From Astropecten irregularis (lineage: Eukaryota > Echinodermata > Asteroidea > Paxillosida > Astropectinidae), in the NCBI GenBank assembly GCA_963971285.1, contig OZ020255.1:5766001-5830000 (forward strand): a stretch of 64,000 bases of DNA, read 5' to 3'. Both the position numbers and the translations under genes were made by a program. The notes beneath the pieces are model-generated. The model searched no databases. It was not told where the DNA came from and was given only the letters and a program-made list of their open reading frames with translations. Of the stretch, positions 6,361 to 63,067 are shown one piece after another (position 1 is the stretch's first letter; each line of letters begins with the position of its first letter).

Positions 6361-6702
6361 TTAAAGGTAGTATCATACTTTGGCAAGAAGCCAAAACAGA
6401 AATATTCACAGATTTACATATAACTTACAGGGTATGAAGATGGTGCTGGTAGAAACCTACATGTGTACCGTAAAAATTTTTCCGCCTGAAATGGTGTATT
6501 TATCCAAAAATTTGTAAACGAACGATCAAAAATAAAAGAGAAAAGACTAAAGAAATACTGTGGCCGTATTTCACGATTTTCTCAAAAAGTGGGCACCGTA
6601 TTGGATTGAAATTTTCACAGAAGACTGACTGTATCTTCCTTGATATTTTTCCCCATGAATATGTACTTCTTTGACAAAAACCAAAGTATGATATTACCTT
6701 TA
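6361..6702 (-). mobile_element. family A TTAA MITE, copy 1
   Basis: TTAAAGGTAGTATCATACTT at the left, AAGTATGATATTACCTTTAA at the right. Complete length, but the central GATCTTTTAAAAGATC has been shortened. Confidence 0.88.
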
Positions 6703-7183
6703 ATGTAGCTTTGTTTTGCCTAGTGATGATTAAGAAAACAACCATTGTTGTTTTTTGGCCAGCCAGTGGCCATGAATGAGCAATTTCAGACGAGGAAATA
6801 ATCATTGTCATCCCAGTACAATGTACATGCAGGGATTAGATTTGCAATGGACATGTATTAGTGAAAGTGTACAGTGTAAGTTGGACTTCCTGAACTATCA
6901 TTTCTTGTCGTCTAGGATTGAATACAAACAATGAGACAAGGTGACAACATGTATGTAGAGGGGAACACAGCTGCAACGAACGCCGCTATACAGAACATTT
7001 GGCTATACGGAACATTATCCTTACTCACAATTTTTATGTACAATGCATACTGCATAGGCCTGCTGAACATATTGTTCACTCTAACAAACAATTTCTGTGT
7101 ATCCCGTGTTTATTATACATGTAGTGGCATTCCACTGTATAAAATTGATGCGATGTGGCGGACTTAGTCTCGCTGAGAACCCA

Positions 7184-7330
7184 GGGGTCAATTTCACAAA
7201 GCACAAATGATCGATCAAAACGAGTTACGAAGGATAACCCATCGCATCCCACGTAGGTCTGCAATGCATCATATGTCCTACGACTAATGTAGTTAGCAGG
7301 TTACCATGAAAGTCTGGTGAAATCGACCCC
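7184..7330. mobile_element. family D element, copy 2
   Basis: GGGGTCAATTTCACAAAGC to CTGGTGAAATCGACCCC, about 147 bp; the interior has GTTACGAAGGATAACCCATCG. Confidence 0.78.
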
Positions 7331-7704
7331 TGGCCAACATGAAGTTGGTCTAGTGTACCGATCTCAAAGATGTGACAATATCTGGATAATACCTGAAGCA
7401 CATGCATGAATACGTACACATACCGTAATTTGCACAAGTACATGTATCCTTGTGGAGACATGGCTTTGTTCTTGTGTACTAATGAACACTCTCCAAAGAG
7501 CAGAATTGAAATCGCTCCCATTTTGAACCAGAATCACTTTCCTGGGTTGAAATTTCTAGCAAATGTTCTTGAAATAAAACTTCTCTTAGACAAGTATACC
7601 TTGGAAATTCCTCCTTCTTGGGGAAGTTCCAAATACCAATTTCGTGAAAACCTTGTGGAGACCTATACACTTTAGAATTTCCCTGTGGAGACATATTCAA
7701 CCTA

Positions 7705-7926
7705 GGGGGTTTACGAAACGGAGGCTCTGGCTCAGGCTCCAGCTCTGTCATCCATATGCTGAAAATATAGGTTGTGGTTTTTCATTGAAGCTGGAGCTCT
7801 GTTTTCCTTTTCAAACCAGAGAATCCAAAGCAGCCAAAAGTCTCTATTTTGAAACCCGTTATTTTAGAATGCATTCACGTAATTGAGCCGAACCCTGAGC
7901 CTGAGCCCCCGTTTCCTAAACACGCC
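7705..7926 (+). mobile_element. family E inverted-repeat element, copy 1
   Basis: Opens GTTTACGAAACGGAGGCTC, ends GAGCCCCCGTTTCCTAAACA. The interior GGTTGTGGTTTTTCATTGAA is diagnostic of the family. Confidence 0.8.
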
Positions 7927-8103
7927 TAATATCCTTGGTCTCCACAAGGCACAAGATATGTGTTTATGTGAACAAAGCCATGTCTCCACAAGGATATAAG
8001 TTCCGGTATGTGTGTACATGTATGCATGCATGTTTGTAATAAGAGTCAGCGGCACTGTGACTGGGAGCAAACTTGCTCATTCAGGAAATGATTCAAACAT
8101 TCC

Positions 8104-8275
8104 TAGACACATGTACATGTACATGTGTATGTGTGCATGTACACATGTAAGTACAATATGTGTATGGATACACATGCACATGTGTATGCACATGCACATG
8201 TGTATGTAATTGCATTTATGACACAATGTATTGCTACATGTACATGTACATGTACATGTACATGTACATGTGCAA
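8104..8275. repeat. TACATG/CATGTA microsatellite
   Basis: ACATGT, TGCACA and TACATG units, including an almost pure (TACATG)n run at 8236-8272. It is self-complementary, so both strands read the same. Confidence 0.92.
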
Positions 8276-8483
8276 CCTTGCTGCCCTGTGCTACATGTAT
8301 GGTTATTAACTTATTATACTGCACCAATAAAGTGCAATGAGGTAGGGCCATGGCCTACATACGTGTACGTAGAATTGATATAAAGGGTGCACAAAAAGAA
8401 ACTTCCGTTGATTTTGACGCCCATACCCTTTGAATCTAATCGGTTTGGGGTGATATGAGTAGTCTGAGTGTCTAGGGCACATC

Positions 8484-8842
8484 TTAAAGGTAATATCATA
8501 CTTTGGGTTTTGTCAAAGAAATACAGATTCGTGGGCAGAAATATCAAGGAAGATACAGTAATAGTAATCTGCGAAAATTTCAGTCCTATACGTTGCCCAC
8601 TTTTTGAGAAAACAGCGAAAAACTTAATAAATGAAGTGTTTTCTCTTTTATTTTTTATCTTTTAAAAGATCAAAAAGATTTTCGGTCGTTGTTTTACTCA
8701 TTTCTGGATAAATACACCATTTCAGGCTTAAAAACTTTAACGCTATGTTTCTACCACCACCATCTTCATACCATGTAAGTTATACGTAAATCTGTGAACA
8801 TTTCTGTTTTGGTCTCTTACCAAAGTATGATACTACCTTTAA
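8484..8842 (+). mobile_element. family A TTAA MITE, copy 2
   Basis: TTAAAGGTAATATCATACTT to AAGTATGATACTACCTTTAA. The central motif is a variant, TATCTTTTAAAAGATC. Confidence 0.9.
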
Positions 8843-8869
8843 GCTGCAGATTGATACTGTATTGCAATG

Positions 8870-9040
8870 CAAGGACTCAACACTGTTCAATACACACACT
8901 ATTGTTTGTCATAACCAAAGGTAACGCACTACGCAATGTAGCGCATGGCAAGTTCATCCTGTATATGGTACCTAAGTACAACTTCTGGTTTTGTACCTTT
9001 TGACAAACAATGCTGTGTGTATTGAACAGTGTTGAGTCCT
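8870..9040. repeat. inverted repeat beside MITE copy 2
   Basis: ACTCAACACTGTTCAATACACAC is mirrored by GTGTATTGAACAGTGTTGAG at 9016-9040, and TTTGTCATAACC by GACAAACAATG. About 170-bp foldback. Confidence 0.6.
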
Positions 9041-9165
9041 TGGCATCAAGTAGGGCATCAAACTGCAGCTTAAGATGTGCTCTAAACACTCAGACTACTC
9101 ATTTTACCCCAACCCGATGAGATTCAAAGGGTTAGGTCGTCACCCTTTACCTGTCAAGAACTTAC

Positions 9166-10191
9166 CATAGCCATTATTGTTTGTGATGATCTGTGGTGCT
9201 GCTGATGGCCTCCCTCGACTTGGAGGAGGGGGAGGCGGGGCTCCCATGCCTGCACTATTGCTTCCAACAATCGAGGGCGGCCGGTCCCTTGAAGGGGGCG
9301 GTGGTGGAGGCGGGGCTCCACTCCCCCTTGAAGGCAGAGGTGGAGGCTTACTGGAGGGCGGGGCTGGGGGAAGCGGGCCGCTGGAGGGTGGCCGAGCAGT
9401 ATTCCTCGCTGGGGGCGGCGGAGGGGGAACGGCCGAGGGTCTTGGTCCGCTGTCTGGAGGCGGTGGCGGACGGGATCTGTTGTTACTAGGCCTCGACGGA
9501 GGGGGAGGGGGCGGGGCGCCACCGAACGTCGGTCCGTTCGTGTGCATCGCAGCACTTTGCATCGGATCCGGGATTAGGGGCGGAGCTTGCCGACTTGAAG
9601 GCGCATGCCTGGCGGGAGGGGGCGGCTGCGGTACTGGGGGTGGGGGTTCTCTTGCTGGGGGAGGGGGTGGTGGTGGCATCCGCCCTTGCGATACAGGCCT
9701 AGCGGGCGGCGGTGCGGGCGGCCGTGAGGATGTCGGCCTTGCTGGCGGCTGATCTCTCGGTTTACCATTTGGAACATTCCGGCCGGGGGGTGGTGGCGGA
9801 GGCAGGTTGCCTACCGAGGGTGGCCGTGGCTTATTCTGTTGAGGGGGAGGGGGTGGCGGACCGGCCGATGAACCGCCGACACCCGGTCTGGAACTGTTAT
9901 TCCCCCTTGAAGTATCGTTCATCCACGCCGGCCGGTTCAGTGTATCGTTCGAGCTCCGGGGGCCGGAGCTTGTGGGTTTGCTGGGCAACGGCCGGCCGGG
10001 AAGCTTGGGCGAGGGCGGCTCTTGCCGCCCGGCACTTTGCCATGGTTGGTTGGAAAGACGTGGAGAAGGAGGCTGGTTGGTGCCATTCCCTGATGGCCTG
10101 GGCGGTAGTGGCTGTGAACCAAATTTGTTTCCTAGCGTTGGACCACTATTACCTACATGGTTGGATGTGGGGCCATCTCTCCCTTGGTTAC
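9166..10191 (-). CDS. WIPF: WIP-family large proline-rich exon
   Basis: The acceptor tctctag lies just before 10191 and reading starts GNQGRDGPTSNH. About 340 residues are dominated by PPPPPP blocks alternating with SRPS, RPP and NGR segments, as in WIPF1. Two in-phase donors exist: gtaagt after 9166 (the stronger) and gtaaag after 9151, which adds five residues (about GKFLT). The plus strand has long open frames here that are only antisense shadows of the low-complexity code. Confidence 0.92.
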
Positions 10192-13100
10192 CTAGAGAGA
10201 AAAAAAAAACGAACAATGTATTGAGTCTCTTTAAAAACTGTCTTCTCATCCTTGAAACAGGCAAGCAACTCGGACTTAACAAAAAAGCACACAAGGAAAT
10301 TCCAATCTTTACAAGACTTTGTGCAGTGTTTTTCTATTTCAATGCCATGAGTTTGATGAGGAAAATGCAGAATTCAGTAGATCCGAGGAAAAGTTGCATG
10401 CACGTTTAAAGGGAAACGAAAGGACAATGAAGGATCATCAAAATCGTCCATACTTTATGTCAGAAAACCTACAGAACCAATTTTCCTCCCTGTAAAATAT
10501 TTTTAGACAAAATGCTCTCATCAGCAAGGGATGCCCACAATCAACTCCATTCACAGTGTAATCTAATTTCGCACTGCAAACGTATTACTACATTCAGTTC
10601 AGTTCAGTTCAGAATAGGAACTTTCAGATTGCAGCTTTTGCCTTGGTGATTTCAGATTTTGTTGTGTGTGTGGCCACTTACATCAAGCCTGGAAATAAGC
10701 GGAGGCTGCGAAGGCCATGGCCTTCGTTGACCTGGTTCTTGGCCTTCATGCCCCTTCAAATGTTTCCATAGACATTATGATTTTCCAATGGAAGTGCCCC
10801 TTGCAATGGAAAATTGGCCTTGCCCTCACCAAACCTTAATTCCAGCCCTGTTACATCCCTGATTTTAAACATCGACTCACCTGAGCCCGCCGGTAGTCTT
10901 CCAGTCTTCTTCAGCTGAGGGATGCCACCGCTGAACAGTCCTCCCATTCCACCTCCACCTCCTCCACCACCACCACCACCGCCACCACCACCGCCACCGC
11001 CTCCACCTCCCATACCCCCGCCCCCTCCTGGTCTCCCTCCTCCTCCTCCTCCTCCACCAGCTGGCTTCTTGTCAACTACAGGAAAAGAACAAAATTGCAC
11101 CATTAAGCAGACCATGAAGAGAAGAACTGACTAAAGGGGTTTACCAACGGCGACTCGGGGTCAGGCTCCAGCTCTGTCATCCTGGGATCGATTTCACGAA
11201 GCCTTGCGAGTGATCGTACATGTAACTCGAGTTATGAAGGATAAACCATCGTAGGGGGCCTATCCCACAAAATGCATCAAAAGTTCTTCGATTGATAGTA
11301 AGTTACGAAGGGTCTGGTAAAATCGACCTCATGGACCGATTTCATAGAGCTGCTTAAAGGGTGTGTACAACATCGGTAAAGGTGACAGAATAGCACTCAT
11401 ACTTTGTCTAATCCAGCATGAACATAAAATAATAATCCTATGAAAATTTGAGCTCAAGCGAACATCTGAGTGCCGAGAAAATAGCGAAAACGCATCTAAA
11501 TTTTTCTTATAAACATGAAGAAGGATTTTTGATTTTGCCAAGATCAAAAATGTTTTTGGTGTTTGGTTTTACTTTGTCTGGATAATTTTTGGCTGGCATA
11601 CTGATTTTATTAACAAGGGTTTTTTTAAACAAATTTCGGTGTTTAAGCAACTCTGTGAAATTGGTCCTGGAGTGGGATTCGGACCTCCATCCTACAGACT
11701 GCTGTACTAGCTCTCCACCCTGGGGCCAATTTCATAGAGCTGCTTAGCATAAAAATTCGCTAAGCATGACATTCCTTTTGATTACCAACCAAATGTCCAT
11801 GTCCAAATGACCAAATGTCCACCACTTGCAATTGTTAAGATTGCTGTTGTTCGCTGACCACGAATATCAAATCGAATTTTCAATGGTGGTTTGTTTTATT
11901 GGACAAGCCATTTTTATGCTAAGCAATTTTTGGTGCTAAGCAGCTCTATGAAATTGGCCCCTGAACAGCCCTATGTTGGGGGCATACCAAACTGTACAAC
12001 CACTTGAGTTCGGTTGTCAGTTAGAAGCCATGAAATACATGAATGCGCATGAATACAATGCTGCACCCCATGGAACAATGGGAGACTTCGGAGAAACGGT
12101 CTTCAAGTCAACAGCAAAACAGCAAAACAAAGTGCGCATGCTCACAATTGCGTGCCCGTGCGCTGTTGACTTGAAGACCGGTTCTCCAAAGTCTCCCATT
12201 AAAGATGCAGGAAATGTTGGCACACGCTGCAAACCCACAGAATGGTCCTATCGAAGATGACTCAAAGAGGATGCAGCTATTTCAATATGTCATCAAATAA
12301 ACCACAAGGGAAACTAGACCACATGTCTGAATCCTACTCCACCCAGTGGTCTTTTGTCAAGTTTGCTCTCTAAAACAAAACAATGAAACTACTCAGTCCG
12401 ATGTACAAGTGCATATAAGGAAAGAATGTGCATACTGTGTACTTGTGGTAGTGAACCAGTTCTCGATGAGCAAACATTGATAACAATGGCCTTCACATTT
12501 TTTACCTGTCAAACATTGAAAAAGTTTTACAGTGAATGTGGCTGCAAACTGAGCACAGACAGGTTGCATTTCTGAAACTTATCCGTGTTCTTGGTTATCA
12601 TACTTTGGTAAGAAACCAAACCAGAAATGTTCAAAGATTTACGTATAACTTACAGGGTATGAAGATGGTGCTGGTAGAAACATACCGTTAAAATGTTTCC
12701 GTCTGAAATGGTGTATTTATCCAGAAATGAGTAAAACAACGACCAAAAATCTTTTTGATCTTTTAAAAGATCAAGAATAAAAGAGAAAAGACTTAAGAAA
12801 TACTGTGGCCGTTTTTCACGATTTTCTCAAAAAGTGGGCACCGTATGGAACTGAAATTTTCACAGATGACTGTTACTGAATTTTCCTTGATTTTTTGCCT
12901 ATAAATCTATATTTCTTTGACAAAAACCAAAGTATGATATCACCTTTCCTCAGAACAAAATGATGGCCTTATGAAAAATAATCCCCTGTGAAACTCCACA
13001 ACAATACCCGGAAGGTTCATTCTAAAAAGTGTACAGGTTTCAGATATTCTTCTGTTTGCAAATTCATATAAAGAAAGAATTAATTTCCACCGTTCATCTT

Positions 13101-15758
13101 TCACAGTTGTTTTCTAGTTGAATTGGATTAGCATTCACATTGCTTTGATTTGATTAGTCCATTAAAGATGATTCAGTATTCAAATTCTGACTTCATATTA
13201 CATTTTAACCATGTGAGTCACGGCAAGCCGTCACATTATGCTGTTAAAGGTAATATCATACTTTGGTTTTTGTCAAAGCATTTTAAAGGTAGGTTTAAAC
13301 CAGCATCATATTCATACCTTGTAAGTTACATGTATATTACAGTGTATACATGTACGTAAATCTGTGAACATTTCTGTTTTTGTCTCTTACCAAAGTATGA
13401 TACTACCCTTAAGGAATATCATAACAAGCAATGTTTCTGAAACAGTTTCTGGAAAAGGGCAATCAAGCACGACATTTACCTGTCCAACAGCCTGGATAAT
13501 ACACAGGCCCAAGGCTTTGTGTCTTTGCAAAATTGATAACCTGCCAAATTATGCATTGCTGACGAAGCAAAAATGAAAGCTGAATGTTCAAAGCTTATTT
13601 TTCTTGGGTTTTGTTTTATATTCAAATAACTTTAAATAATGGTTATTTGGTTAAGAAATTGGTCGGAAATTCCCCCTTTTGTCCAATGAGGTCAACACAT
13701 GGAAACGTTTCTAGTAAAAAATTGCCAACAAATCCAAAACCTCTTAAATGATCCTTGGGATACTGCGCTACGAGAGTGTACGGTTTGCATGACCTCTGAC
13801 TGCCAAACAAACAAAAATAACTGAATATTAAGGACATAGAGTATGGGATGGCATTCGCCTGAAGACGGCCAGAGCATACTTTTAAATAATAATAATAATA
13901 ATTTATTGAATTTTTATCGCACCCTTCAGGCACAGCTTGCTCAAAACCGCAGTTTACCATGTAAACAGGCCGGAACGTCGAGTTAACCGGCTCTTTTCAG
14001 AGCCACCCCATACTCATAAAAGATACATGTCACATGGTGTTACCGCAAAACCTATTACTTTTAATATGTACTTCCACCATGCATTAACCTCAAATCTAAG
14101 TAATATTAGGGACACCGCCAATATAGGGCTTGATAGCTCAGTTGGTAGAGCGCTGGTACGTTATTCCGTGGGTCGCTGTTTCAAATTCCAGTCAATTTTC
14201 TCATGAAAATAAAATCAATGAAATAAAAAACATAATCATCAAATAACCACAAGGGAAACTGACTGAAGTTCGGTCAGTTTCCCTTGTGGTTATTTGATGA
14301 TTATATAAATTAAAAAGCCGTATCCTCTTTGAATGATCCCAATGTACTGTTCTCAGGTTGCAGCATTGCTGTGAGTATCAAAATTAATTATCCCTGGGAT
14401 ATAGCAGTATGTGCGTGCTTTCATGGCTTCTGACTATTAGGGACACCACCAACGTAGGGCTGGGTAGCTCAGTTGTAGAGCACTGGTATGGTATTCCTGA
14501 GGTCGCTGGTTCGAATCCCACTCCAGTAAACTTTTCTCTGTTCACTTTTCAATGAAATGAAAAAACCTAGTGACATGAGAATGCAGATCCTCTATGAATA
14601 TAATACACCGACCCAGTAGACCACACCCCTTGACAAATTAACCAATCACAACGCGTTATTTAAATTGCCGCCATTTTGTCCGACAAAATATTTTAAATTT
14701 TGTATTCTTTACTACACACTTTTCGTTGAGATTACCTTCGTTTCGTATGCACAAGGCAATTCTTTTACAAATCCGAGTTTTATTCTTAACCATGGTCAAG
14801 CGGTATTTATAATATTTTCATTATATTTCTGACTCTCGATGCTCTGGCTGAGAGGAAATGTACATTTTTTGGCCTTTTGCAAAACCAAAGTCTAACGGAG
14901 AGAAGTGTTTTCCATGGTTTAGTGTGTGCAATTCTTCGTGTGTGGGCAATTGTGACACATTGTGTGCATGCGTCTGCATTGTTGCCATAGACATAAATAA
15001 CCTACACGTATAGACCGACAGCAGAGGGCGTGAGCACGTAATTTTGGAAACGGACGCCATCTTAAAGAACTATATATGGGCAAAGTGCGCGTCACTCAGT
15101 GCACGAGGCGCACACGCCGCACGTAAACAATTGATTTTATTTCAAAATCTCGCAAAGATTCTATTTAAAGAGGCCAGTTGCGCACGTAATCTCGCGCTAG
15201 TTCCCTCTCATAAAATCAAGATGAAATTTCAAACACAAAAGTTTTCATTTAATCTTTCCATTATTTGAGAAAGTTATATTACTGTGCAATGGTACGTGAG
15301 GTATACTGAATGCACCAATGGGTTTATTAAGTGGATACCAATTCTAGAATTTCCCGTTTGAATCCGCTCTATTCAATCGTGCGTAAAAGTAACTTTTTTT
15401 GCCCATCGTTTGGCAATAGTCGGGTGCCGTCACGATTACGGTACCCCGCCAGGCATTTTGAATAGGGCGCTGTCGGTCTGTGGGTTATTTAATGTACATG
15501 TATGTCAGTGGTTGTTGTTGCTTGGACGTTGCTATGGTGGGCGTGGCCTAATGGATCGGTGTATTGGTAAGGTATCTTACTGACAGCTGGCGCACTCCTA
15601 TCATTGGTCACAGTCTTCTTGAGCCTGGCGCCTTTGTGAATGTCCGTCAGCAAAGCTCCTCTGCTCTTCTGCCCTTTCTTGTTCAGTGCTGGGGGTGCGC
15701 TAAAGTTTGCAGGGGGCGGGGGAGGGGGCGCCGGGGCGGGCGGCGGAGGGGGAGGCAT
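9166..15758 (-). CDS. WIPF: WAS/WASL-interacting protein (WIP/verprolin) family gene, three coding exons, C-terminus missing
   Basis: WIP-family proteins bind actin monomers through a WH2 motif and hold WASP/N-WASP through a C-terminal WH1-binding segment, controlling Arp2/3 actin assembly in the cytoplasm. Coding exons on the minus strand are 15758-15581, 11075-10881 and 10191-9166. They join in phase (1/1) through GT-AG sites and give about 466 residues. Seen in order: a proline-rich N-terminus, a WH2 motif with ALLTDIHKGARLKK followed by TVTNDRSAP, a long glycine-rich block ending in GGLFSGGIPQLKKTGRLP, and a long proline-rich, profilin/SH3-binding-like region. This order matches vertebrate WIPF1 (about 500 aa). 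The WASP-binding tail (family motif around ESRFYFHP) was not found between 1 and 9165, so the gene probably runs off the left edge. Introns carry several MITEs. Certain as to family; the one-to-one orthologue (WIPF1/2/3) is not resolved. Confidence 0.93.
10192..10880 (-). other. WIP-family intron with one dispersed element
   Basis: Intron between the glycine-rich and proline-rich exons. Holds an element at 10685-10851 (CCTGGAAATAA ... TTCCAGCCCTG) and a short CAGTT/TTCAG tandem near 10590. Confidence 0.75.
10685..10851 (+). mobile_element. family K element, copy 1
   Basis: About 165 bp, nearly identical in reverse complement to 27823-27983; contains GAAGGCCATGGCCTTCG and CCCCTTCAAATGTTTCC. 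Confidence 0.8.
10881..11075 (-). CDS. WIPF: WIP-family glycine-rich exon
   Basis: Acceptor cctgtag precedes 11075, and the donor is gtgagt (plus-strand actcac, 10875-10880). The 195-nt exon opens with DKKPAGGGG, runs through more than 40 mostly glycine residues, and closes with GGLFSGGIPQLKKTGRLPAG. This is the block that follows WH2 in WIPF1 (GGLFQAGMPKL in the human protein). The plus strand is a CCACCT/CCTCCA-rich tract, likely prone to length polymorphism. Confidence 0.92.
11138..11183 (+). mobile_element. family E fragment cut off by a family D element
   Basis: GTTTACCAACGGCGACTC and AGGCTCCAGCTCTGTCATCC match the start of family E. The match ends exactly where family D copy 3 begins. 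Confidence 0.65.
11184..11330. mobile_element. family D element, copy 3
   Basis: GGGATCGATTTCACGAAGCC to TCTGGTAAAATCGACCTC; interior CGAGTTATGAAGGATAAACC as in copy 2. Confidence 0.75.
11335..11674 (+). mobile_element. family B element (copy 4) inside a family C fragment
   Basis: The outer ends GATTTCATAGAGCTGCTTAA and AACTCTGTGAAATTGGTCC are family C. The body GACAGAATAGCACTCATACT and GAAAATAGCGAAAACGC is family B. Confidence 0.7.
11722..11961. mobile_element. family C element, copy 2
   Basis: GGGGCCAATTTCATAGAGCT to AGCTCTATGAAATTGGCCCC, perfect terminal inverted repeat, 240 bp. Confidence 0.88.
12080..12197. mobile_element. short inverted-repeat element ending GGGAGACTT, copy 1
   Basis: GGGAGACTTCGGAGAAACGG and CTTCAAGTCAACAGC are mirrored by GCTGTTGACTTGAAGACCGG and TTCTCCAAAGTCTCCC. 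A longer copy is at 54820-54958. Confidence 0.8.
12594..12948 (-). mobile_element. family A TTAA MITE, copy 3 (ends eroded)
   Basis: The body is full length with GATCTTTTAAAAGATC, but the left end reads GGTTATCATACTTTGG without TTAAAGG and the right end ATATCACCTTTCC. Confidence 0.85.
13244..13412 (+). mobile_element. family A TTAA MITE, copy 4, internally deleted
   Basis: Both TTAA ends are present but the element is only 169 bp. The middle, including the GATC palindrome, is missing. Confidence 0.85.
13413..14106. other. WIP-family intron, no exon seen
   Basis: Contains a short ATA/ATT run near 13888. The 105-residue minus-strand frame at 13643-13960 shows no domain, and splicing of the flanking exons does not need it. 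Confidence 0.45.
14107..14230 (+). repeat. tRNA-derived SINE (family J), copy 1
   Basis: A tRNA-like head GATAGCTCAGTTGGTAGAGC (A box) and TTTCAAATTCC (decayed B box), then TCAATTTTCTCATG. The ATTAGGGACACC leader is shared with copy 2. Confidence 0.7.
14232..14304. repeat. perfect 32-bp hairpin built from the SINE tail
   Basis: Left arm ATAATCATCAAATAACCACA and on to GAAACTGAC. Right arm is its exact complement, with a 9-nt loop. The arm sequence is the tail of family J SINEs. Confidence 0.92.
14437..14570 (+). repeat. tRNA-derived SINE (family J), copy 2
   Basis: GGGTAGCTCAGTTGTAGAGC and GGTTCGAATCCCACTCC, then TTCTCTGTTCACTTTTCAAT. The best-kept B box of the family. Confidence 0.78.
14603..15566. 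mobile_element. 964-bp inverted-repeat element ending beside a WIP splice donor
   Basis: ATACACCGACCCAGTAGACC at the left mirrors GGCCTAATGGATCGGTGTAT at the right. A one-ended copy of the same terminus is at 63074-63130. An inner inverted repeat (AGACCGACAGC) spans about 15012-15482. No transposase-like frame. Confidence 0.7.
15581..15758 (-). CDS. WIPF: WIP-family exon with start codon and WH2 actin-binding motif
   Basis: The ATG is at 15758 and begins MPPPPPPAPAPPPPPP; no in-frame upstream ATG is seen before the acceptor. The WH2 motif occupies about residues 34-58 (ALLTDI, then LKKTVTNDRSAP). The exon ends after the first base of a codon at a gtaaga donor (plus-strand tcttac, 15575-15580). 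An inverted-repeat element ends only about 9 bp beyond the donor. Confidence 0.93.
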
Positions 15759-15818
15759 GGTGGGGGATGGTTCCTCTCTGCGTACAGGTTGACCACTTGC
15801 CGCACCTACTGCTGAAAT
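15759..15818 (-). other. WIPF: 5'UTR part of the first coding exon of the WIP-family gene
   Basis: On the minus strand a pyrimidine tract ending cccccag gives an acceptor just before 15818. The stretch between it and the ATG has no other start. This implies at least one further non-coding 5' exon at higher coordinates. Confidence 0.55.
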
Positions 15819-15997
15819 CTGGGGGAAAGAGAAAAATCAACGAAAGAAATAAAGAAATAATATTATAACTTCTTTATGATTTTGCATTGTATAAAATGTA
15901 AAGCACAAAGTCTATGAAGTCTGATTGTACACGTAGGGCCACTGATTTTCCGTTTTAGAAAAGTGCAAATTCCATTTCCCAAATCCTTAGATTCTGT

Positions 15998-17444
15998 TTA
16001 AAGGTACATGTAGTATCTAAGGTTGTCGTCGGCACGATTTTTTCCTGTCGACAGGTCGGTACATTGGAGTTACCGACGTCGACATGTGTCGACAGAAAGC
16101 TGTATGAAAATTGGGTCCGAAAATGTTCGTCCAAAACGGAAAATAAGCTTATATAAAACTGATTAAACTCTTAATATAAAAACACATATCCAACTTACGT
16201 TATGCATCAAGTAACAGAGAGTGCGTTTATTGATATTTCTAATAAATCTTATTATCCAAAATGGAGCTATAGTGTCACTGTGTTCAATGTCATTGTCATT
16301 TCAACAACTTCCATGGCACGGCACTTTCAACCGCCGACGCCATATTGCCATTTGTTGTTATAACTTGTTTATCTGCGTGACTGCGGCCGCCATAGTGCGA
16401 TCACTTCCGGGTTCGGGGTTTCCCGATTTTGAAGCCGGGGAATTCCGCAAAGATTGGTCATTAATACTCATTATTTTCGCTTCGGGTAACCGGGTTAATT
16501 TATTTCCGATATTATTATATTTATATTAACTTTTTTTCAAGTTTACTCTGTCTTTACTAAGTATTTGTGATATTATTTTCACGCACGCACGCAAGCTTTT
16601 TCATTGGTTGTTGATGACATCATCGCCATGCGGTGAGTGTGCAGCATGTCAACCCAGGCACGTACGTGTGGACATAGCGCTACACGGGTCACGCACGGCC
16701 GGCCGGTACGGCTTGTTGTTGCAATGTTGTTGCATAGCGAACTGGCATTTCACGTGTACAAATGTCAAAACTTCGATACAATGTATGTAAACCACTTGAC
16801 TGCGGGACTTCCCGCTGGATTTATAATGCTTATATTGTTTTCAAACACATAAGGACTACTTTCTGGAATATATATTACGGCCATAAAACCGCATGGGGAA
16901 CTGAATATCTTTATAACTGGTAAGCTTTTGTAGGCTTTTGAAGGGGCTGCTGTGCCTTTTTTCTGCTTCGTATTTTTTTTTTCTCATTTCTGTCGCCATG
17001 ACGGCAGCTATGTCGACAAACTCGACAGGCTGAGAAATTCACTTTGTCGACAGAGCTGTCGACAGAAGCCCTGTCGACGACAACCTTAGTAGTATCATAC
17101 TTTGGTAATAAACCAAAACAGAAATGTTCACAGATTTACGTGTAATTTTCAGGGTATGAAGATGGTGCTAGTAGAAACATATACCGTTAACATTAACCTG
17201 AAATGGTGCATTTATCCACAAATAAGTCAAACAATGACCACAAATCTTTTTGATCTTTAAAAAGATAAAAAATAAAAGAGAAAAGACATAAGAAATACTA
17301 TGGCTGTTTTTCACGATTTTCTATAAGTTGGCACCGTATGGGACTGAAATTTTCACAGATGACTTTGACTGTATCTTCCTTCATATTTTTGCCCATGAAT
17401 CTGTATTTCTTAGACAAAAACCAAAGTATGATAACTACCTTTAA
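15998..17444 (-). mobile_element. family A TTAA MITE, copy 5, split by an insertion
   Basis: The left end TTAAAGGTACATGTAGTATC at 15998-16017 and the rest at 17089-17444 are parts of one MITE, separated by the element at 16018-17088. Confidence 0.8.
16018..17088. mobile_element. GTCGAC-rich element with 8-bp target duplication
   Basis: Ends TAAGGTTGTCGTCG and CGACGACAACCTTA. GTAGTATC flanks both sides (16010-16017, 17089-17096). Repeated TGTCGACA palindromes lie near both ends. An 8-bp duplication is typical of hAT-type transposition. The non-repetitive, GC-richer middle (16330-16480) holds ETS-like and YY1-like motifs but no domain-bearing frame. Confidence 0.85.
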
Positions 17445-18632
17445 GGCGGAAAAATTTGGTTTAAGACTGAACAAATCTGTTTCGTGCTATTCAGTTCCAA
17501 CAAGTTGTATAAAAACTAGTAAATTGCATACTGTACTGACTGTGTGGGCATGCACTGGAAAAGAGTCGTAACTTTTGCACAGTGAAGACTAACTTGTCAG
17601 ACTGTGTTTTGTCACAAAAACAGTCAACTTGTGCAAGACCAAACCATGATTCAGTTAGCCTAGGAAATGTACATGTATACATATGTACATATGTAGCAAT
17701 CAGTTAACATAAATGATGCATTTTGTGAATTTACTTATTCCGTTTTGAAAATGGAATTTTCCATTTTGAAAATGGAATTCCGTTTCAAGAAGCAGATTCC
17801 GTGAATTCCATCCGTTTTCCGTTTTTGCGGAAAATCAGTGGCCTTATTCTTGCATTATGGACGTACTGTAAGCCGCGGTATGTTGGCTGAACTCAGTGGA
17901 ATGTATAGCACATGTACATGCACATATTATGTGGAACTCGTTCATAGCTACGGTATAGGGTGATCTGAGTCAACTGCTCCAAATACCAGCTGGTTTTGAT
18001 GCCCGTAGGCTCAAGTGCTGATGTTAGTCACTGGAATATTTTTCTGGTACTGTATACACTGCATACTGTGTATCTTGCTCTACATTGTACTGAACACGGT
18101 AAACTATATACATGTAAAAGCACATTGAATGACATTGGCCTGCCCCTGCAAGAATGAAACCTACATGTATGACCTGTGTAGCCATTCTGTAAATGCTCAT
18201 GAATGCATTTTATTACATGTACAAACACATGCGTACATGGTTCAGCTTTATACACTGACTCCCATGCCGAAGCTTACATAATGTGTATGTATCACTTGAA
18301 CATTTTGAAAAAGGTTAAATGCATTTACATGTATGTAATGTACAGTGGTGTGTTCCACTCCAGTTAACTACGCGCACTGCGCACAATGTGTGACACCGTT
18401 TTCAAACTGGAATGCGCTGTTCGCCAAACACGCACACAATGTTCGCCTTACATAGCTATCGGTGCAGAGGAGGTGTTTGCTGAAGTTGGCTACATGTAAC
18501 TACATTGAATGAAAGATGGATGCAATACGCAACACGTTCGCCATTTGTTGCGTGTGCGTTCCACTTCAAAATCCAAGCGTAACACTAACGTCACAAACAT
18601 GTTTGCGCAAGCAAAACATACCGCATTATTTC
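17445..18632. other. no gene seen
   Basis: Includes AAATGGAATT-type short repeats at 17740-17790 and many TACATGTA motifs. Short frames lack domains. Confidence 0.4.
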
Positions 18633-18838
18633 GTATCTTTAAAAGATCAAAACTGTTTTTGATAAGTTTTTCTACGTTTTTCTGGATTAATAGACTACAG
18701 CATTTCGGGCAGAACAAAATTAGCGGTAAGATAGTATGTTTCTAAACAAGATCTTTATACTGTACCTTTCATTTAGTTATAAGGTAAATCTGCAAAGATT
18801 TCTGTTTCGGTATGCTAACAAAGTATGATACAAGTAGT
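18633..18838 (+). mobile_element. family A MITE, right-half fragment
   Basis: Starts at TCTTTAAAAGATCAAAA, then the CAGCATTTCGGGC and AGTATGATAC landmarks of family A in order; heavily diverged. Confidence 0.65.
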
Positions 18839-19203: not shown

Positions 19204-19573
19204 TTAAAGGTAATATCATACTTTGGTGTTTATCAAAGAAATACAGATTCATGGGCAAAAATTTAACTTTAGACAGATACAATAACAGTCATCTGTGAAA
19301 ATTTCAGTCCAATACCGTGCCCACTTTTTGAGAAAACATTGAAAGACAGCCGTGCAGCAGTTTTTTCTCTTTTATTTTTGATCGTTTAAAAGATCAAAAA
19401 GGTTTTCGGTCGTTGTTTTACTAATTTCTGGATAAATACACCACTTCAGGCGGAACAATTTTAGCGGTATTTTTCTACCACCACCATCTTCATACCCTGT
19501 AAGAATATACATGTAGGTAAATCTGTGAACATTTCTGTTTTGGTTTCTTACCAAAGTATGATACTACCTTTAA
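19204..19573 (+). mobile_element. family A TTAA MITE, copy 6
   Basis: Both TTAA ends, full body, GATCGTTTAAAAGATC centre (one mismatch). Confidence 0.92.
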
Positions 19574-20763: not shown

Positions 20764-21815
20764 ATGTACATGTACATTATGTACATAAATGTATGTCATC
20801 ATCCAGATACATGCTCAAGTCACAACTTCTTGTTGATCAATTGAAACTTGTGTGGCAACTACTTAACTGATCTATTTTTCCTGGTTTTGTCAAATGAAGC
20901 AATTAATCATGGCACATTCTAGTTTGTTTTTCTCTTTTTAATTCATTTAAATGTCTACCTCCAACTACTCTATCATGTATTACATACTTTCATTGCATCA
21001 TTCAGTTTCAAATTGCTGGGGTACGTAGACCTACACAAGTATATGTACCGAAGCTCTCATCACGGTCACCAACATTTGGTTTCGACTTGAGAGGCGTCTG
21101 GGTCTGGGATCTGGGCCTCTTTTGAGTATCCTGTTTCCTGTTTTGGACGTTTACTAACTGTACATTACCCAAATTTGTATCCTAGTGGAGACATGGCTTT
21201 GTTCTCGTGTACTTAAATGAACACTCTCCGAAGAGCAGTAACTAAAATTGCTTCTATTTTTTAACTTATATTTATAAGCCAGAGCCACACATTTATAGAG
21301 ATTGTCCCTAAGTTATACATACATGTATAATATTATATCTGTGCGATGGATAAACTGCCTTGAAATTTTCAACCCTGCATCAACCCCGAAATTTGTCTAG
21401 TGCGAAAACCCCTTGTGTACATGGAAAGGACTGAGCACTGTACAGTGCTTGCTGCCACACGTACAATACATGTATGCCCTGTACGCACTGGACTCTTTTT
21501 CCTGGGTGTTTCATCGAACCGATGGGTAAAAGAAAAATGGGCAAATATTACCTGTTATACCAGTGTCCGCACTTGGACTTTCAGCTCGGGTAACTAAACC
21601 GTGCACGCGCGAAAGAATTACCGAGCTGTCAATACTATTGTACATACATGTACATGTAGCTAGGCTCATGAGGGTACCAGACTCGCATTGTCCGCACTGG
21701 ACTTTTTGTCTCGGGAAAAGTGTCTCAGGAATTCTTCCTGGGCAGAAGTTGGCCAGTAGAAATACCAGCGAGGGTCGGGAAAAGTAACTGAGAGGAAGAC
21801 TTCCTGAGACATCCG
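20764..21815. other. no gene seen
   Basis: TCCGCACTGGACTTTTTGT-type segments recur around 21570-21720 and 21985, suggesting another dispersed repeat. Many CATGTAC motifs. Confidence 0.4.
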
Positions 21816-26580: not shown

Positions 26581-26585
26581 GACTC

Positions 26586-38963: not shown

Positions 38964-38994
<31 letters not shown>

Positions 38995-39120: not shown

Positions 39121-39153
<33 letters not shown>

Positions 39154-50957: not shown

Positions 50958-51150
50958 CTAGGCTCCGGCTCAGACTTCGGCTTCGTCTTATCTCTGTAAT
51001 ACACATTATTATATAGGTCTATGCTGAAAATCCAGGTTGTGTTTTTTTATTGGAACTGAAGCTATGTTTTATTTTTCAATCCAGAGAATCTACTACCGAA
51101 CTATAGGATTCACGAAATGGAGCCGGAGCCCGAGCCGAATTTGTTTTGAA
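50958..51150 (+). mobile_element. family E element, copy 5
   Basis: AGGCTCCGGCTCAGACTTCG, GAAAATCCAGGTTGTG, TTCACGAAATGGAGCCGGAG; partly deleted. Confidence 0.7.
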
Positions 51151-52931: not shown

Positions 52932-53120
52932 TTAAAGGGAGGGTACAGAATTGGTAAGACAAAATACATTTCATCATCACAGATTCACATAAAACTTACA
53001 CAGTATAATGGTGATGATAGGAGAAAACATCCCATGAAATGTTTTTGTCTGAAATGCCATATTCGTTGAGAAATAAATGACGGTTTTGTCGCAAACACTA
53101 GTTCTGTACCATCCCTTTAA
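52932..53120 (-). mobile_element. family B TTAA element, short copy 5
   Basis: TTAAAGGGAGGGTACAGAAT to GTTCTGTACCATCCCTTTAA, 189 bp; one arm keeps CACAGATTCACATAAAACTT as in families A and B. Confidence 0.78.
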
Positions 53121-53313: not shown

Positions 53314-53656
53314 TTAAAGGTAATATCATACTTTGGTTTAATATCATACTTTGGAATACAGATTCGTGGTCAAAAATATCAAGGAAGATACAGTACAAGT
53401 AATCTGTGAAAATTTCAGTCCCATACGTTGCCCGAGAAAACAGTGAAAAACGGCCACAGTATTTTTATTTTTTTATATTTGATCTTTTAAAAGATCAAAA
53501 AGATTTTCGGTCGCTGTTTTACTAATTTCTGGATAAATACATCATTTCAGGCGGAAAAAATGTAACGGTATGTTTCTACCGCCACCATCTTCATACCCTG
53601 TAAGTTATACGTAAATTTGTGAACATTTCTGTTTTGGATTCTAACCAAAGTACAAT
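53314..53656 (+). mobile_element. family A TTAA MITE, copy 14
   Basis: The left end has a duplicated AATATCATACTTTGG. The right end decays into AAAGTACAATACAAAGG, where a family B copy begins. Confidence 0.85.
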
Positions 53657-53957
53657 ACAAAGGTACAATACATGAGTGGTAAAGGTCACAGAACAGCACT
53701 CATACTTTGTCTGATCAAACATGTACATGAAATAATAAACATATGAAAAGTTGAGCTCAATCGGACATCTGAGTAACGAGAAAATAGCGAAAACCCGACT
53801 CAATTTTTCGTATAAAACATGAAGAATTCTTTTGATCTTACCCCGAGGTCAAAAGTGTTTTCGGTCTTTGTTTCATTAATTTCTGGATAAATACAGCATT
53901 TCAGGTGGAAATATGTGAACGCTATGTTTCTACCAGCACCATCTTCATACCTTGATT
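53657..53957 (+). mobile_element. family B element, copy 2
   Basis: AAAGGTACAATACATGAGTG and GGTCACAGAACAGCACTCAT, then the family A right half (TTTCTGGATAAATACAGCAT, CACCATCTTCATACC); the far end is missing. Confidence 0.82.
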
Positions 53958-54819
53958 AAAAGGGGATAACTAAAACAACTCAAGTGAGGATTTCCTTTTT
54001 GTTTGTTCCAAAAATCGTTCGGACGAACGATCTTTGGAAAAGACACTACATCTTGATTTTCTTCAAAAACCCAGCATTTGGTGAACCAAGATTTCCCATG
54101 GTGACTGTTTGCACTGTTTACAAACTGTTGAGTCCATTTTCTGTCTCAAACTCAACAATTTACCTTGCAAGGCCTTCCAAATCCTATATGCTCCCTTTAA
54201 AAAGGGTAAAACTTTTAAGTCGATTTTCTCAAAACTATAGTTTCAATGCGCCGTGGCCACTTTGTCTCTTCGTGAAAACGGTGATATCACCGGGTGTCTA
54301 TCGCATACAGTACACTATTCCATGTATATACATTCACCTCAACTTCAGAACTAATAGACCGGTTAACTTTTAATCCATTAAGCGTGTTACCAATTTTGCA
54401 GTGTTAGATGGTTTGAGAAGTTAACGGCAATTACCCAATCTCATGCTGATAAGCCTGATATACGAATTCGACAAACAACTTCATTAACAGCTCGTGTCTT
54501 TGCGAATCCATACACGCTATGCACTTAACTTGTGTTGTTACTTTTTCTTCGTGTATACCCAGACTAATTGAATCTTGGTTCGTGGGTTTGGGTTTGTAAT
54601 TTTTAGGGGGAATAACGATACGTGTTGTTACTATGGTTTGGACTAAGTAGCTGTATTTCAGATATACATAGCAGTGTATCCAAGTAATTTTCTAAAATCA
54701 TTCGTTGTGGGTTTGATATAAATGTAACTTTATCATACGTGTGACTTTGGTATTCAAACTACTTCAAAACGTGAGATAAATCTTGCAATATTCACATAGA
54801 AACTTCATAATACATTAAT

Positions 54820-55070: not shown

Positions 55071-55123
55071 TAGGGAGACTTTCCCATAGGGTCGTGCACA
55101 AACTTTACTTACCTATTTCTAAA
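55071..55123 (+). repeat. 53-bp sequence repeated at the right edge
   Basis: Identical to 63906-63958, starting TAGGGAGACTTTCCCATAGG. Confidence 0.9.
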
Positions 55124-55223: not shown

Positions 55224-55597
55224 TTGAAGGTAGTATCATACTTTGGCTTTTGTCAAAGAAAAACAGATTCATTGGCAGAAACATCAAGGAAGATACAGTC
55301 ACAGTCATCTGTGAAAATTTCATTTCCATACGGTGCCCACTTTTTGAGAAAATCGTGTAAAACGGCCGCAGTATTTCTTAAGTTTTTTTCTCTTTGATTT
55401 TTGATCTTTTTAAAGATCGAAAATCAAAAAAGATTTTCGGTCGTTGTTTTACAAATTTTTGGATAAATACACCATTTCAGGGGGAAATATTTTAACGGTA
55501 GGTTTCTACCAGCACCATCTTCATACCCTGTAAGTTATACGTAAATCGGTGAAAATTTCTGTTTTGGTTTATTACTAAAGTATGATACGACCTTTAA
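55224..55597 (+). mobile_element. family A TTAA MITE, copy 15
   Basis: Left end mutated to TTGAAGGTAGTATCATAC; right end TATGATACGACCTTTAA; the central palindrome is expanded (GATCTTTTTAAAGATC). Confidence 0.9.
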
Positions 55598-55860: not shown

Positions 55861-56212
55861 TTAAGGATATAGTACATGATTGGTAATGGTCAAAGAACAG
55901 CACTCACAATTTGTCTGATCCGGCATGTACAAGTCATGTACATGAAATAATAAACCTGGAAAGATTTGAGCTCAATCGGACATTTGAGTCCCGAGAAAAT
56001 ATCGAAAAAAATACTAATAAAGCATAAAGAATGCATGGTTTTGATCTTGGCAAAACTTAAATTATTGTTTCACAATTTTCGAAACAAATATCGCATTTCA
56101 GGGAAAAATATTTTAGCAGGCGGGTATCTATCATACCCATCTTTAGACCTTGTATATCTATCCGTGAACATTTCTGTTTTGGCTTGTTACCAATTCTGTA
56201 CTGTACCTTTAA
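55861..56212 (+). mobile_element. family B element, copy 3
   Basis: TTAAGGATATAGTACATGAT to CTGTACTGTACCTTTAA. Its final TTAA is also the first TTAA of the family A copy that follows. Confidence 0.82.
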
Positions 56213-56600
56213 AGGAAATATCATACAATGTACTTTGGTTTTTGTCGAAGAAATACAGATTCATGGGCAGAAATATCGAGGAAGATACAGTAACAGTCAT
56301 CTGTGAAAATTTCAGTCCCATACGGTGCCCACTTTTTGAGAAAACAGTGAAAAACAGCCACAGCATTTCTTTTCTTATCTAATTTCTTTTCTTATCTTTT
56401 CTCTTTTATTTTTTATCTTTTAAAAGATCAAAAAGATTTTAGGTCGTTGTTTGACTAATTTCTGGATAAATACACCATTTCAGGCGGAAAAATGTTAACG
56501 GCATGCTTCTACCACCACCATCATCATACCCTGAAAGTAATACGTAAATCTGTGAACATTTCTGTTTTGGTGTCTTACCAAAGTATGATACTACCTTTAA
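56209..56600 (+). mobile_element. family A TTAA MITE, copy 16
   Basis: TTAAAGGAAATATCATAC to AAGTATGATACTACCTTTAA; a small tandem of TTTCTTTTCTTATCT lies left of the centre. Confidence 0.92.
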
Positions 56601-57998: not shown

Positions 57999-59048
57999 TT
58001 AGGGTACCATGGCCGTTGACGCTTTGGGGCGTGCTGCGTCTCCTGCCCGGGCATTGGCTTGACCATTGACTTGACCAGTATTCAGTTCCTCATCGACCAT
58101 GACTGAGTCACTCCCAACTCTGTTCCCCTTCCTCCTGATCATGTTCATGAAACCGTGTCTGAAATGTTTGTTCTTAAACGCGTAAATGATAGGATTGGCG
58201 CAGGAATTGGCGAAGGCCAGGAGCACCATGGACCTGTAGAATGGCTCGACGATGTAGGAGTCGGGAACCCCACCGAAGTGGTAGATGTAGAAGCCTATCT
58301 GGTCTGGCGTCCAGCAGATGATGAAGGTGATGATAACGATGAACAAGGTTTCGATGACTCTCCTCCGAGCCTCCAGGAGGGAGTAGGCCGGGCTGAATCG
58401 AGACTGGTCCCTCTGCAGGAGCGCCTTGGCCTGGGCCTTGAGCGTCCTTACGGTGAGGATGTTACTCACCAGCATGATGACCATGGGCACGAAGTACTCA
58501 ATGAAGAAAACCGCCGTGGCGATGAGGTAACGGAAGCCCAGACTCGGCCAGTCGTTGAAGCAGAAGCCGTCATCGTGCAGCTCCACCACGTAGAAATTGA
58601 AGGTGTTCAGGGCGAGCGAGAAGAGCCAAGCTAGAGCCATGATGGCTTGAGGTCGCCCTTTGCTGAAGAATCTCCGGTAGCGCATGGGGTACACCACGGC
58701 GTAGAACCGTTCCAGAGACACCAGCGTCAGGGTGAACACGGACGCCACGATGGACGTCCACATGAATACCACGTTGAAGATCAGCTTGCAGTACAGGCGC
58801 CCCGTCCACGTCAGAGGAATCTTGCTGAAGGTCGGGATGGGGACGATGAAGATGGAAGTGATCAGGTCTGCCACTGCCAGATTCACGATGAAGGCGTTGG
58901 TGGTATTCCGCATCCGTCGCCGGTGGACGTACACGATGATAACCAGCGTGTTCCCGACGATTCCCGTGATGGCAAATATCAGCTGAAGAATGTCAATCCA
59001 GTCCCAGTCCAGAGAAGGCACCCATGCCTGCGTCGTGTCGTTTTCCAT
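57999..59048 (-). CDS. rhodopsin-class (class A) G protein-coupled receptor, intronless, peptide-receptor-like
   Basis: A single 349-residue frame runs from the ATG at 59048 to the TAA at 57999. It is a seven-helix plasma-membrane receptor that would signal through heterotrimeric G proteins. Landmarks: N-glycosylation site NDT at residue 3, GN in TM1 (32), NLAVAD in TM2 (56-61), C87 at the start of TM3, ERFYAVVYP (113-121) in place of DRY, C163 in loop 2 as disulfide partner, FIICWTPDQ in TM6 (242-250), NPIIY (285-289) in TM7, then FKNKHFRHGF as helix 8. The layout resembles neuropeptide receptors (galanin/allatostatin/tachykinin-like), but the ligand cannot be read from sequence. GC content is well above the flanks, and antisense open frames here are shadows. 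Confidence 0.94.
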   Translation of the reverse strand: MENDTTQAWVPSLDWDWIDILQLIFAITGIVGNTLVIIVYVHRRRMRNTTNAFIVNLAVADLITSIFIVPIPTFSKIPLTWTGRLYCKLIFNVVFMWTSIVASVFTLTLVSLERFYAVVYPMRYRRFFSKGRPQAIMALAWLFSLALNTFNFYVVELHDDGFCFNDWPSLGFRYLIATAVFFIEYFVPMVIMLVSNILTVRTLKAQAKALLQRDQSRFSPAYSLLEARRRVIETLFIVIITFIICWTPDQIGFYIYHFGGVPDSYIVEPFYRSMVLLAFANSCANPIIYAFKNKHFRHGFMNMIRRKGNRVGSDSVMVDEELNTGQVNGQANARAGDAARPKASTAMVP

Positions 59049-61104: not shown

Positions 61105-61457
61105 TTAAAGGTAATAGCATACTTTGGTTTTTATCAAATAAATACAGATTTATAGGCACAAATATCAAGACAGATACAATAACAGTCATCGGTAAAAATT
61201 TCCCTTACGGTGCCCACTTTTTGAGAAAACAGTGAAAAACAGCCACAGTATTTCTTAAGTCTTTTCACTTTTATTTTTGATCTTTTAAAAGATCAAAAAG
61301 ATTTTCGGTCGTTGTTTTACTAATTTCTGGATAAACACACCGTTTCAGGCGGACACATTTTAACGGTATGTTTCTATTACAACCACCTTCATACCTTGTA
61401 AGTTATACGCAAATCTGGGAACATTTCTGTTTTGGTGTCTTACCAAAGTACCTTTAA
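61105..61457 (+). mobile_element. family A TTAA MITE, copy 17
   Basis: TTAAAGGTAATAGCATACTT to TTACCAAAGTACCTTTAA; the TGATACTA near the right end is deleted but TTAA is kept. Confidence 0.9.
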
Positions 61458-61597
61458 AATCACGCAATTTCGTGTTGCTGGTAGCGACGTTTCTGCTGCT
61501 GGTACTGCTAGCCTTCATCATCAAGCAAATGAAAAAAAAATGGATGCTGCGGTGTCCAGGTTTGTGACGTGTTCTTAACAGTTTTATAATTATGTCA

Positions 61598-61745
61598 TCA
61601 AAGTAATTACATGGGAAACTGACTGAATTTTTTAAGTCATTGAAAAGTGAACAAAGAAAATTTGACTTGAGCGGGATTCGATCCGGCGACCTCTGGAATA
61701 CCGTATCCGGCGCTCTTAATACCAACTAAGCTACTATGTTGCTAC
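61598..61745 (-). repeat. tRNA-derived SINE (family J), copy 3
   Basis: Minus strand: TAGCTTAGTTGGTATTAAGA, GGATCGAATCCCGCTCAAGT, TTTTCTTTGTTCACTTTTCA, then CAGTCAGTTTCCC. The most complete J copy. Confidence 0.82.
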
Positions 61746-61909
61746 TAGGTCCTATGTTGTAGTGTTTTATTTACCAGATTATTTTCCAAATGAAAGTGTT
61801 ATAATGTCGATAGGAACCAGTCTATTTAAGATTATGACGCTAACTTATCCCATTATTCTCTCTCCAACCCTTTCTGCTAAATACGCATAGAACGGCTGCA
61901 TTTATAGTA

Positions 61910-62030
61910 CGCAGGACTTCGTGGGTTCGTATGGTCGTGCCGTGTGGTCTCGTATGATCTCGCGTGGCCTCGTGACATCTCGCATGTTCTCGTGATGTCT
62001 CGCCTTCTCTCGTCTCTTCGCATCCCTCAT
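61910..62030. repeat. degenerate TCTCGTG-type tandem
   Basis: CGTATGGTCGTG, GGTCTCGTATGATCTCG, GGCCTCGTGACATCTCG, TTCTCGTGATGTCTCG: roughly 10-bp spaced CTCGTG units. Confidence 0.7.
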
Positions 62031-62701
62031 CTAGTTCTATATCGGCATTTTGTGTTTCATTTTCTTTCCCCGTGAGTAAGGTGGTAAGGTCCATTCAAAG
62101 TCGAACACAGCATCAATTTTCCTGTATTCACGTCTTATTAGTTCCCTTGACAGTCATTACACAGATGTACGTGACATGTTATACCAATGTAGGTCTGTGA
62201 TGTGTCATCAGTGGTAATAAATAACAGCCAATGTTGATAATCTGCGCGCAGTGTTTGTGTGTTTTTTTACGAACGAAGAGGACATGATGGGCCTACTTTT
62301 AACGAGAGTCGTCTCTGCACCGTCAAACGAAGCAAGTCTGACGGGCAATTACGAAGCTCAAGCCGGCGCAGCTGACAGCTGTAGTCAGACCTTCGAACCT
62401 CGGTGTATGACAAGATTGGCTCTTCGGAAATCTTCCGTGTAAGCGTGTCCCACTTTTTGTCCTGATGTTGACAGCTTCGAGATCTTCAATCATGGTTTGT
62501 TTTTACTGTTTGTTTGGCACCGTGCCCCGAATTCATTCTCGGGCGAATAATAAACCGACATACAACCGATTTCAATCGAAAATTCTGACTTTTACTTTGT
62601 AAGAAAAGCTCCGTATAGCCAGTGGCACAGCGACTATAACTAGAGTCTTTTTAAAGGTAATACTGTAATCAAATTTGGCCTCTGAAAGGGATGAAGGACC
62701 T

Positions 62702-63067
62702 TTAAAGGTAATATCATACTTTGGTTTTTGTCAACGAAATACAGATTCGTGTGCAAAAATATCAAGACAGATACAGTAACAGTCATCTGTGAATCTTTCA
62801 GTCCCATACGGTGCCCACTTTTTGAGAAAACGGTGAAAAACGGCCACAGTATTTCTGAAGTCTTTTCTCTTTCATTTTTGATCTTTTAAAAGATCAAAAC
62901 GATTTTCGGTCGTTGTTTTACTAATTTCTGGATAAATACACCATTTCATGCGAAAAAATTGTAATGGTAATGTTTCTACAACCACCATCTTCATACCCTG
63001 TAAGTTATACGTAAATCTGTGAACATTTCTGTTTTGGATTCTTACCAAAGTATGATACTACCTTTAA
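62702..63067 (+). mobile_element. family A TTAA MITE, copy 18
   Basis: TTAAAGGTAATATCATACTT to AAGTATGATACTACCTTTAA with GATCTTTTAAAAGATC: close to an apparent consensus. Confidence 0.94.

Follow-up and report, generated by a model that had tools for sequence, protein, structure and literature searches.

A TTAA-targeting MITE family in a 64-kb window of Astropecten irregularis, probably of Kolobok type

Introduction

A short repeat, called here family A, recurs throughout the stretch of Astropecten irregularis DNA that we analysed (64,000 nucleotides of contig OZ020255.1, referred to below as the window). Its copies tend to end in TTAA, a target used by more than one kind of DNA transposon. 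Which superfamily moved family A, and where does the target stop and the element begin?

Results

Copy number and structure of family A

The terminal arm TTAAAGGTARTATCATACTT had 28 matches in the 64-kb window at up to 3 mismatches, against 0.03 expected and at most 1 in any shuffled sequence. A profile built from 12 seed copies recovered 16 near-complete copies of 343 to 458 bp, in both orientations, and four partial ones (13244-13412, 18628-18832, 21815-21976, and 46709-46811). Family A thus amounts to 20 copies and 6,535 bp, or 10.2% of the window, which confirms the initial annotation's count of 18 copies, a half-copy, and a fragment and its estimate of about a tenth. Weaker matches of the profile at 2732-2785 (E 2e-5) and 11423-11585 (E 3e-4) were left out of the count. 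The stretches at 24147-24495, 53661-53958, 55861-56212, and 52932-53120 also matched the profile, yet they belong to other related families and were rejected as copies of A. The 20 copies are as follows.

6361-6703, plus strand: near-complete, TTAA at both ends (terminal-arm match, profile, alignment)
8484-8842, minus strand: near-complete, filled member of the empty-site pair (joined-flank comparison, alignment)
12586-12949, plus strand: near-complete, TTAA eroded at both ends (alignment)
13244-13412, minus strand: internally deleted (169 bp), TTAA at both ends (profile)
17083-17444, plus strand: near-complete, left TTAA lost (alignment)
18628-18832, minus strand: left-arm partial copy, diverged (profile)
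19204-19573, minus strand: near-complete, TTAA at both ends (terminal-arm match, alignment)
21815-21976, plus strand: left-arm half copy (profile)
23676-24042, minus strand: near-complete, one TTAA changed to TTGA (alignment)
33035-33492, plus strand: an internal tandem duplication of 81 bp lies close to the right end, where the TTAA is altered (alignment)
34262-34618, minus strand: near-complete, TTAA at both ends (terminal-arm match, alignment)
39802-40181, minus strand: near-complete, TTAA at both ends (terminal-arm match, alignment)
44324-44684, minus strand: near-complete, TTAA at both ends (terminal-arm match, alignment)
46709-46811, minus strand: central fragment (profile)
47189-47531, plus strand: near-complete, TTAA at both ends (terminal-arm match, alignment)
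53314-53660, minus strand: adjoins a BC element at a junction without TTAA, about 8 nt probably lost (alignment)
55224-55597, minus strand: near-complete, one TTAA changed (terminal-arm match, alignment)
56209-56600, minus strand: one TTAA (56209-56212) common to it and a BC element
61105-61457, minus strand: a short deletion affects one of the terminal repeats, TTAA at both ends (alignment)
62702-63067, minus strand: nearest the consensus (4.7%), TTAA at 62702-62705 common to it and a small D-type element

The consensus is 365 bp long with both TTAAs included, and GATCTTTTAAAAGATC occupies its positions 172 to 187. The mobile unit measures about 357 bp and has terminal inverted repeats of about 20 bp, 5'-AGGTARTATCATACTTTGGT. 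Conservation is even from end to end (0.86 to 0.96 per 20-column block). The copy at 62702-63067, folded as single-stranded DNA, pairs its ends in a stem of 24 bp; none of 100 shuffles folded as well (z -4.68). Beyond the terminal repeat of about 24 nt, the likeness of the two arms of A to each other is marginal at most (score 26, reached by 2 of 200 shuffles). Weak matches of the profile to A copies also occurred on the opposite strand (best E 2e-12); these come in part from the terminal repeats and a central palindrome. Being short, multicopy, and bounded by terminal inverted repeats, and lacking coding capacity, family A is a MITE.

No transposase was found among the 30 of the window's 102 stop-to-stop frames of at least 85 aa that were scanned against Pfam, and within those frames the earlier statement that no transposase gene is present holds. 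The matches above the curated cut-offs were a WH2 motif, a fibrinogen C-terminal domain, and a rhodopsin-type GPCR (three 7TM models). In the same 30 frames, six further matches fell under the cut-offs and none was a transposase. Three minus-strand frames, 6503-6835, 8317-8661, and 61363-61725, overlap A copies in part, and none of them gave a match above a Pfam cut-off. As an exact pattern, the 23-base arm had 0 matches in bacterial, archaeal, and viral sequence collections, as expected for such collections. Rfam returned nine tRNA matches and one histone stem-loop in the window.

Target site and true ends

An exact TTAA is present at 25 of the 32 ends of the 16 near-complete copies and at both ends in 10 of the 16; the copy at 12586-12949 has it at neither end. 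The claim that every complete copy is TTAA-ended was therefore too strong. With 7.3% divergence per site, hand arithmetic predicts an intact TTAA at about 74% of ends. Since 25 of 32 is near this figure, the data fit a universal TTAA followed by decay.

To find unoccupied sites, we took 21 insertions (17 A copies and 4 elements of other families), joined the two flanks of each with the last four bases of one end between them, and compared each query with the window. The queries for 12586, 52932, and 53314 lacked a clean TTAA at the joined end, which makes these 3 of the 21 poor tests. Three queries were flagged as spanning, and a true empty site was found for 1 of the 21, the locus at 8484-8842:

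8998-9142, minus strand: paralogous empty site, an inverted copy of the flanks 8415-8483 and 8839-8914 with a single TTAA and no insertion

The surrounding sequence is an inverted duplication, with the copy at 8484-8842 in one arm and no insertion in the other (8998-9142). The flanks of the copy are identical to 9142-8998 on the other strand at 127 of 147 positions, with 4 gap columns (E 3e-43). The empty arm reads CACATC-TTAA-GCTGCAG, and the filled arm reads CACATC-TTAA-AGGTAATATC...GATACTACCT-TTAA-GCTGCAG, the element having AGGTA at one tip and TACCT at the other. As the empty arm holds a single TTAA, the duplicated target is TTAA and the element ends in 5'-AGG...CCT-3'. At this one locus, in comparison with a paralogue and not an allele, family A inserts at TTAA, and the duplication covers these four bases and no more. 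Whether the empty arm was never occupied or has lost an element by precise excision, the ends come out the same. The initial annotation had proposed a MITE family with TTAA targeting, which the paralogous empty site bears out. It had also considered target site and terminus inseparable by eye, and the window's own empty site now separates them. Two other candidates, the joined queries J56209 and J62651, were rejected as trivial self-matches. The stretch at 14601-14664 was rejected as well: its repeat matches the right flank of 63067 from the TTAA outward, and the left flank is unmatched.

Neighbouring families with the same tip

At least three other families with TTAA-AGG ends (BC, D, and E) accompany family A in the window.

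24147-24495, plus strand: BC, complete; left arm homologous to the left arm of A, its own right arm, TTAA-AGGTA ends
55861-56212, minus strand: BC, nearly complete; right end TTAAGG, left end TTAAAGG
53661-53958, minus strand: BC, left end truncated
11354-11590, minus strand: BC-like, right-arm part with a TTAA-AGGGT end, far limit approximate
52932-53120, plus strand: E, 189 bp, TTAA-AGGGA ends, part of the left arm related to that of A
5683-6115, unstranded: D, 433 bp, terminal repeat TTAA-AGGTTWACTGTAATCAAA
62651-62705, unstranded: small element of D type (55 bp) with a single D-like end, TTAA-AGGT at both ends

The tips read AGGTA in A and BC, AGGTT in D, and AGGGA in E. Both ends of A, both ends of BC, and one of the two ends of E have an AGG tip with TTGGT about 15 nt inward. 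In comparisons of the arms, the left arm of BC was similar to that of A (interior score 69 against a shuffle mean of 17, reached by 0 of 200 shuffles), and so was part of the left arm of E (score 41, 0 of 200). The right arms of BC and A are marginally alike at most (score 25, reached by 1 of 200 shuffles). For the right arms of E and A, 30 of 200 shuffles reached the score, the E arm having been cut 3 bases too long. Compared directly, the left arms of BC and E gave no significant similarity (score 20, reached by 19 of 200 shuffles).

We also scanned the window for pairs of TTAAs with starts 41 to 599 bases apart and at least five matching terminal bases. Of 19 such pairs, 13 begin with AGG and none with CC. 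Because nine of the 13 AGG pairs are A copies, the scan contributes few independent families; the rest are D, BC, E, and the composite of D and A at 62651-63067. The six non-AGG pairs comprise a tRNA pair, the empty-site flanks, and four apparent chance pairs.

Superfamily assignment

According to the matched passages of PMC9587614, Kolobok elements make TTAA duplications and have 5'-RR and YY-3' termini, unlike piggyBac. Family A has both the 4-bp TTAA duplication and termini of this form (AG...CT). The matched passages of PMC6004289 describe Xenopus T2-MITEs, with TTAA and terminal AGGRR, as presumed non-autonomous Kolobok elements, and report 16 major subfamilies, with young members in T2-A1 and T2-C. 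In the same passages, ten full-length Xenopus Kolobok copies have AG termini and TTAA flanks except on one side of one copy, and four of the six subfamilies A1 to A6 begin with AGG, the other two with AGC/AGT and AGA. Since the TTAA duplication and the AGG...CCT ends match the published Kolobok mark, family A is probably a non-autonomous (MITE) family of a Kolobok-superfamily DNA transposon, of the same kind as the T2-MITEs. With no transposase gene among the 30 frames scanned, the superfamily is read from the termini and the target.

The likeness to T2-MITEs, as far as the matched passages describe them, extends to the TTAA target, the AGG tip, the presence of several such families per genome, and the lack of coding capacity. 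The differences lie in age and tip: all near-complete A copies seen here are at least 4.7% from their consensus, in contrast to the young members of T2-A1 and T2-C, and the tips here are AGGTA, AGGTT, and AGGGA. AGGRR fits only E; it is absent from A (whose fourth base is T), BC, and D. Family A thus behaves in the manner of a T2-MITE without being classed among them. With autonomous Kolobok elements, as they appear in the matched passages of PMC6004289 and PMC9587614, family A shares the TTAA duplication, the RR...YY ends, and the AGG of four of the six Xenopus subfamilies A1 to A6; those elements are several kb long and carry a transposase, whereas A is about 357 bp without a transposase gene. 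KolobokP, a lineage of the Kolobok superfamily, is reported in PMC9587614 (matched passages) from echinoderms, lancelets, and other animals; it is described there as having long terminal direct repeats, none of which were seen here, and duplications that measure 3-4 or 4-5 bp according to family. The published repeat of Xenopus subfamily A5, AGGGGAACTATCATGA, has TATCAT near its tip as A does, at an offset different by two bases, and serves as a lead only. Among the literature matches listed, there were no papers on family A; most subscription papers and Repbase lie outside this scope, and we do not claim absence from print.

Other origins have to be weighed against Kolobok. Ends that begin with CC characterize piggyBac, and Sola3 is TTAA-specific. 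The initial annotation had favoured a piggyBac-type MITE, targeted to TTAA by a piggyBac transposase. The exact TTAA duplication at the empty-site locus is indeed what piggyBac and its MITEs make, and precise excision, named for piggyBac in the reference list of PMC8634313, could equally explain the empty arm. The termini differ, however: the element proper starts with 5'-AGG, an RR terminus of the kind that the matched passages of PMC9587614 use to tell Kolobok from piggyBac, and not with CC, which begins 0 of the 19 TTAA-bounded pairs in the window. We regard a piggyBac origin as quite improbable. Termini and target are no proof of a superfamily, and iMITEdb sorts MITE families by such features into 16 superfamilies, Kolobok, PiggyBac, and Sola3 among them (PMC5199201, matched passages). 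Family A could on this ground belong to another TTAA-duplicating superfamily, such as Sola3, or to an undescribed one. This is unlikely given that the AGG termini match the published Kolobok and T2 ends (PMC6004289, matched passages); Sola3 is a weakly tested rival, as the literature matched for Sola3 with TTAA held no statement on its termini.

Spread by segmental duplication or recombination, without transposition, would make family A a dispersed repeat, and some copies of the related families do adjoin one another. Against this, no sequence common to the listed flanks was apparent by eye, most copies end at TTAA, and the empty-site pair shows a clean insertion at TTAA, which refutes this origin unless a chance deletion happened to stop precisely at each of the two TTAAs. 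We therefore consider this origin extremely unlikely. Assignment to Kolobok replaces a by-eye piggyBac guess with a testable proposal, by way of an empty site within the same window, and the exact ends of family A can now be used to look for its autonomous partner. As a biological finding it is modest: family A is an ordinary but well-resolved case of a known kind.

Divergence and proposed history

Substitutions from the consensus average 7.3% (range, 4.7 to 11.8%), and 190 of 419 are transitions. Pairwise identity among the copies is 80.8 to 91.5%, with a median of 87% over 120 pairs. A derived base is common to at least three copies in 25 columns, against 3.9 (largest, 10) under random placement, a control that ignores mutation hot spots. 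Linked columns with shared derived bases point to several source elements and, on this alignment, family A comprises several subfamilies. The sample holds no sign of recent activity, with no near-complete copy less than 4.7% from the consensus. Recent amplification, as suggested initially, is not supported in view of the mean divergence, the absence of any pair above 91.5% among the 120, and the several subfamilies.

Under the Kolobok assignment, a transposase encoded elsewhere and acting in trans would bind the terminal repeats of A. The same enzyme would cut the unit out and insert it at a TTAA opened by staggered cuts 4 nt apart, and repair would then make the TTAA duplication. Several source elements would have amplified in the past, and the copies would since have decayed by substitution and small indels.

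Abutting elements and possible arm exchange

An exact TTAA is shared at two junctions, between BC and A at 56209-56212 and between D and A at 62702-62705. A and BC also adjoin at 53660, where about 8 nt have apparently been lost. One TTAA common to two elements is expected if an existing border TTAA is targeted. With 0.46 shared junctions expected, the two exact ones (P 0.08), or three with the eroded one (P 0.012), represent a weak enrichment, calculated from 12 boundary sites as counted by eye.

It is conceivable, if doubtful, that MITE families arise by arm exchange, with neighbours that share a TTAA (CCTTTAAAGG at junctions 56209 and 62702; eroded at 53660) moving or recombining as composites, and that A itself is such a composite. 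AGG-ended families side by side with differing arm combinations offer a system for asking how transposases sustain many MITE families. The left arm of A has homologues in the left arms of BC and E, and between its right arm and theirs no clear relationship is seen. A palindrome centred on TTAA, CTTTTAAAAG, marks the point where the two arms of A join.

Repeats associated with family A copies

The segment at 8415-9142 is an inverted duplication with arms of about 145 bp that are 86% identical to each other. One arm carries an insertion of family A, the TTAA-ended MITE family, and the duplication as a whole follows closely downstream of a minus-strand frame rich in proline. Another member of the family, the near-complete plus-strand copy at 33035-33492, contains an internal tandem duplication at 33288-33462 with a spacing of 81 bp. 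An exact 50-bp repeat is found at 55074-55123 and again at 63909-63958, and the first of these falls within the left flank of the family A copy that begins at 55224.

Other repeats

We also observed a separate dispersed repeat family with four copies in the window. Three of them (31605-31684, 51020-51099 and 63357-63436) share 79-91% identity with the copy at 7755-7834. A long simple repeat of the trinucleotide type spans 38488-39250, where several frames contain runs of Leu, Gln or Ala.

Protein-coding frames and RNA genes

Proline-rich frames and a WH2 motif lie on the minus strand at 9140-15836, and together they resemble a WIP/WIPF gene. The plus-strand frame at 40182-40763, which begins immediately after the family A copy at 39802-40181, encodes a fibrinogen C-terminal domain. 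An unbroken frame at 57999-59048 encodes a rhodopsin-type GPCR of 349 amino acids.

Seven leucine tRNA genes, with anticodons TAG and AAG, were detected at 35960-38052; they lie in both orientations, and some are arranged as repeated units. A match to the histone 3' UTR stem-loop was found on the plus strand at 13984-14030.
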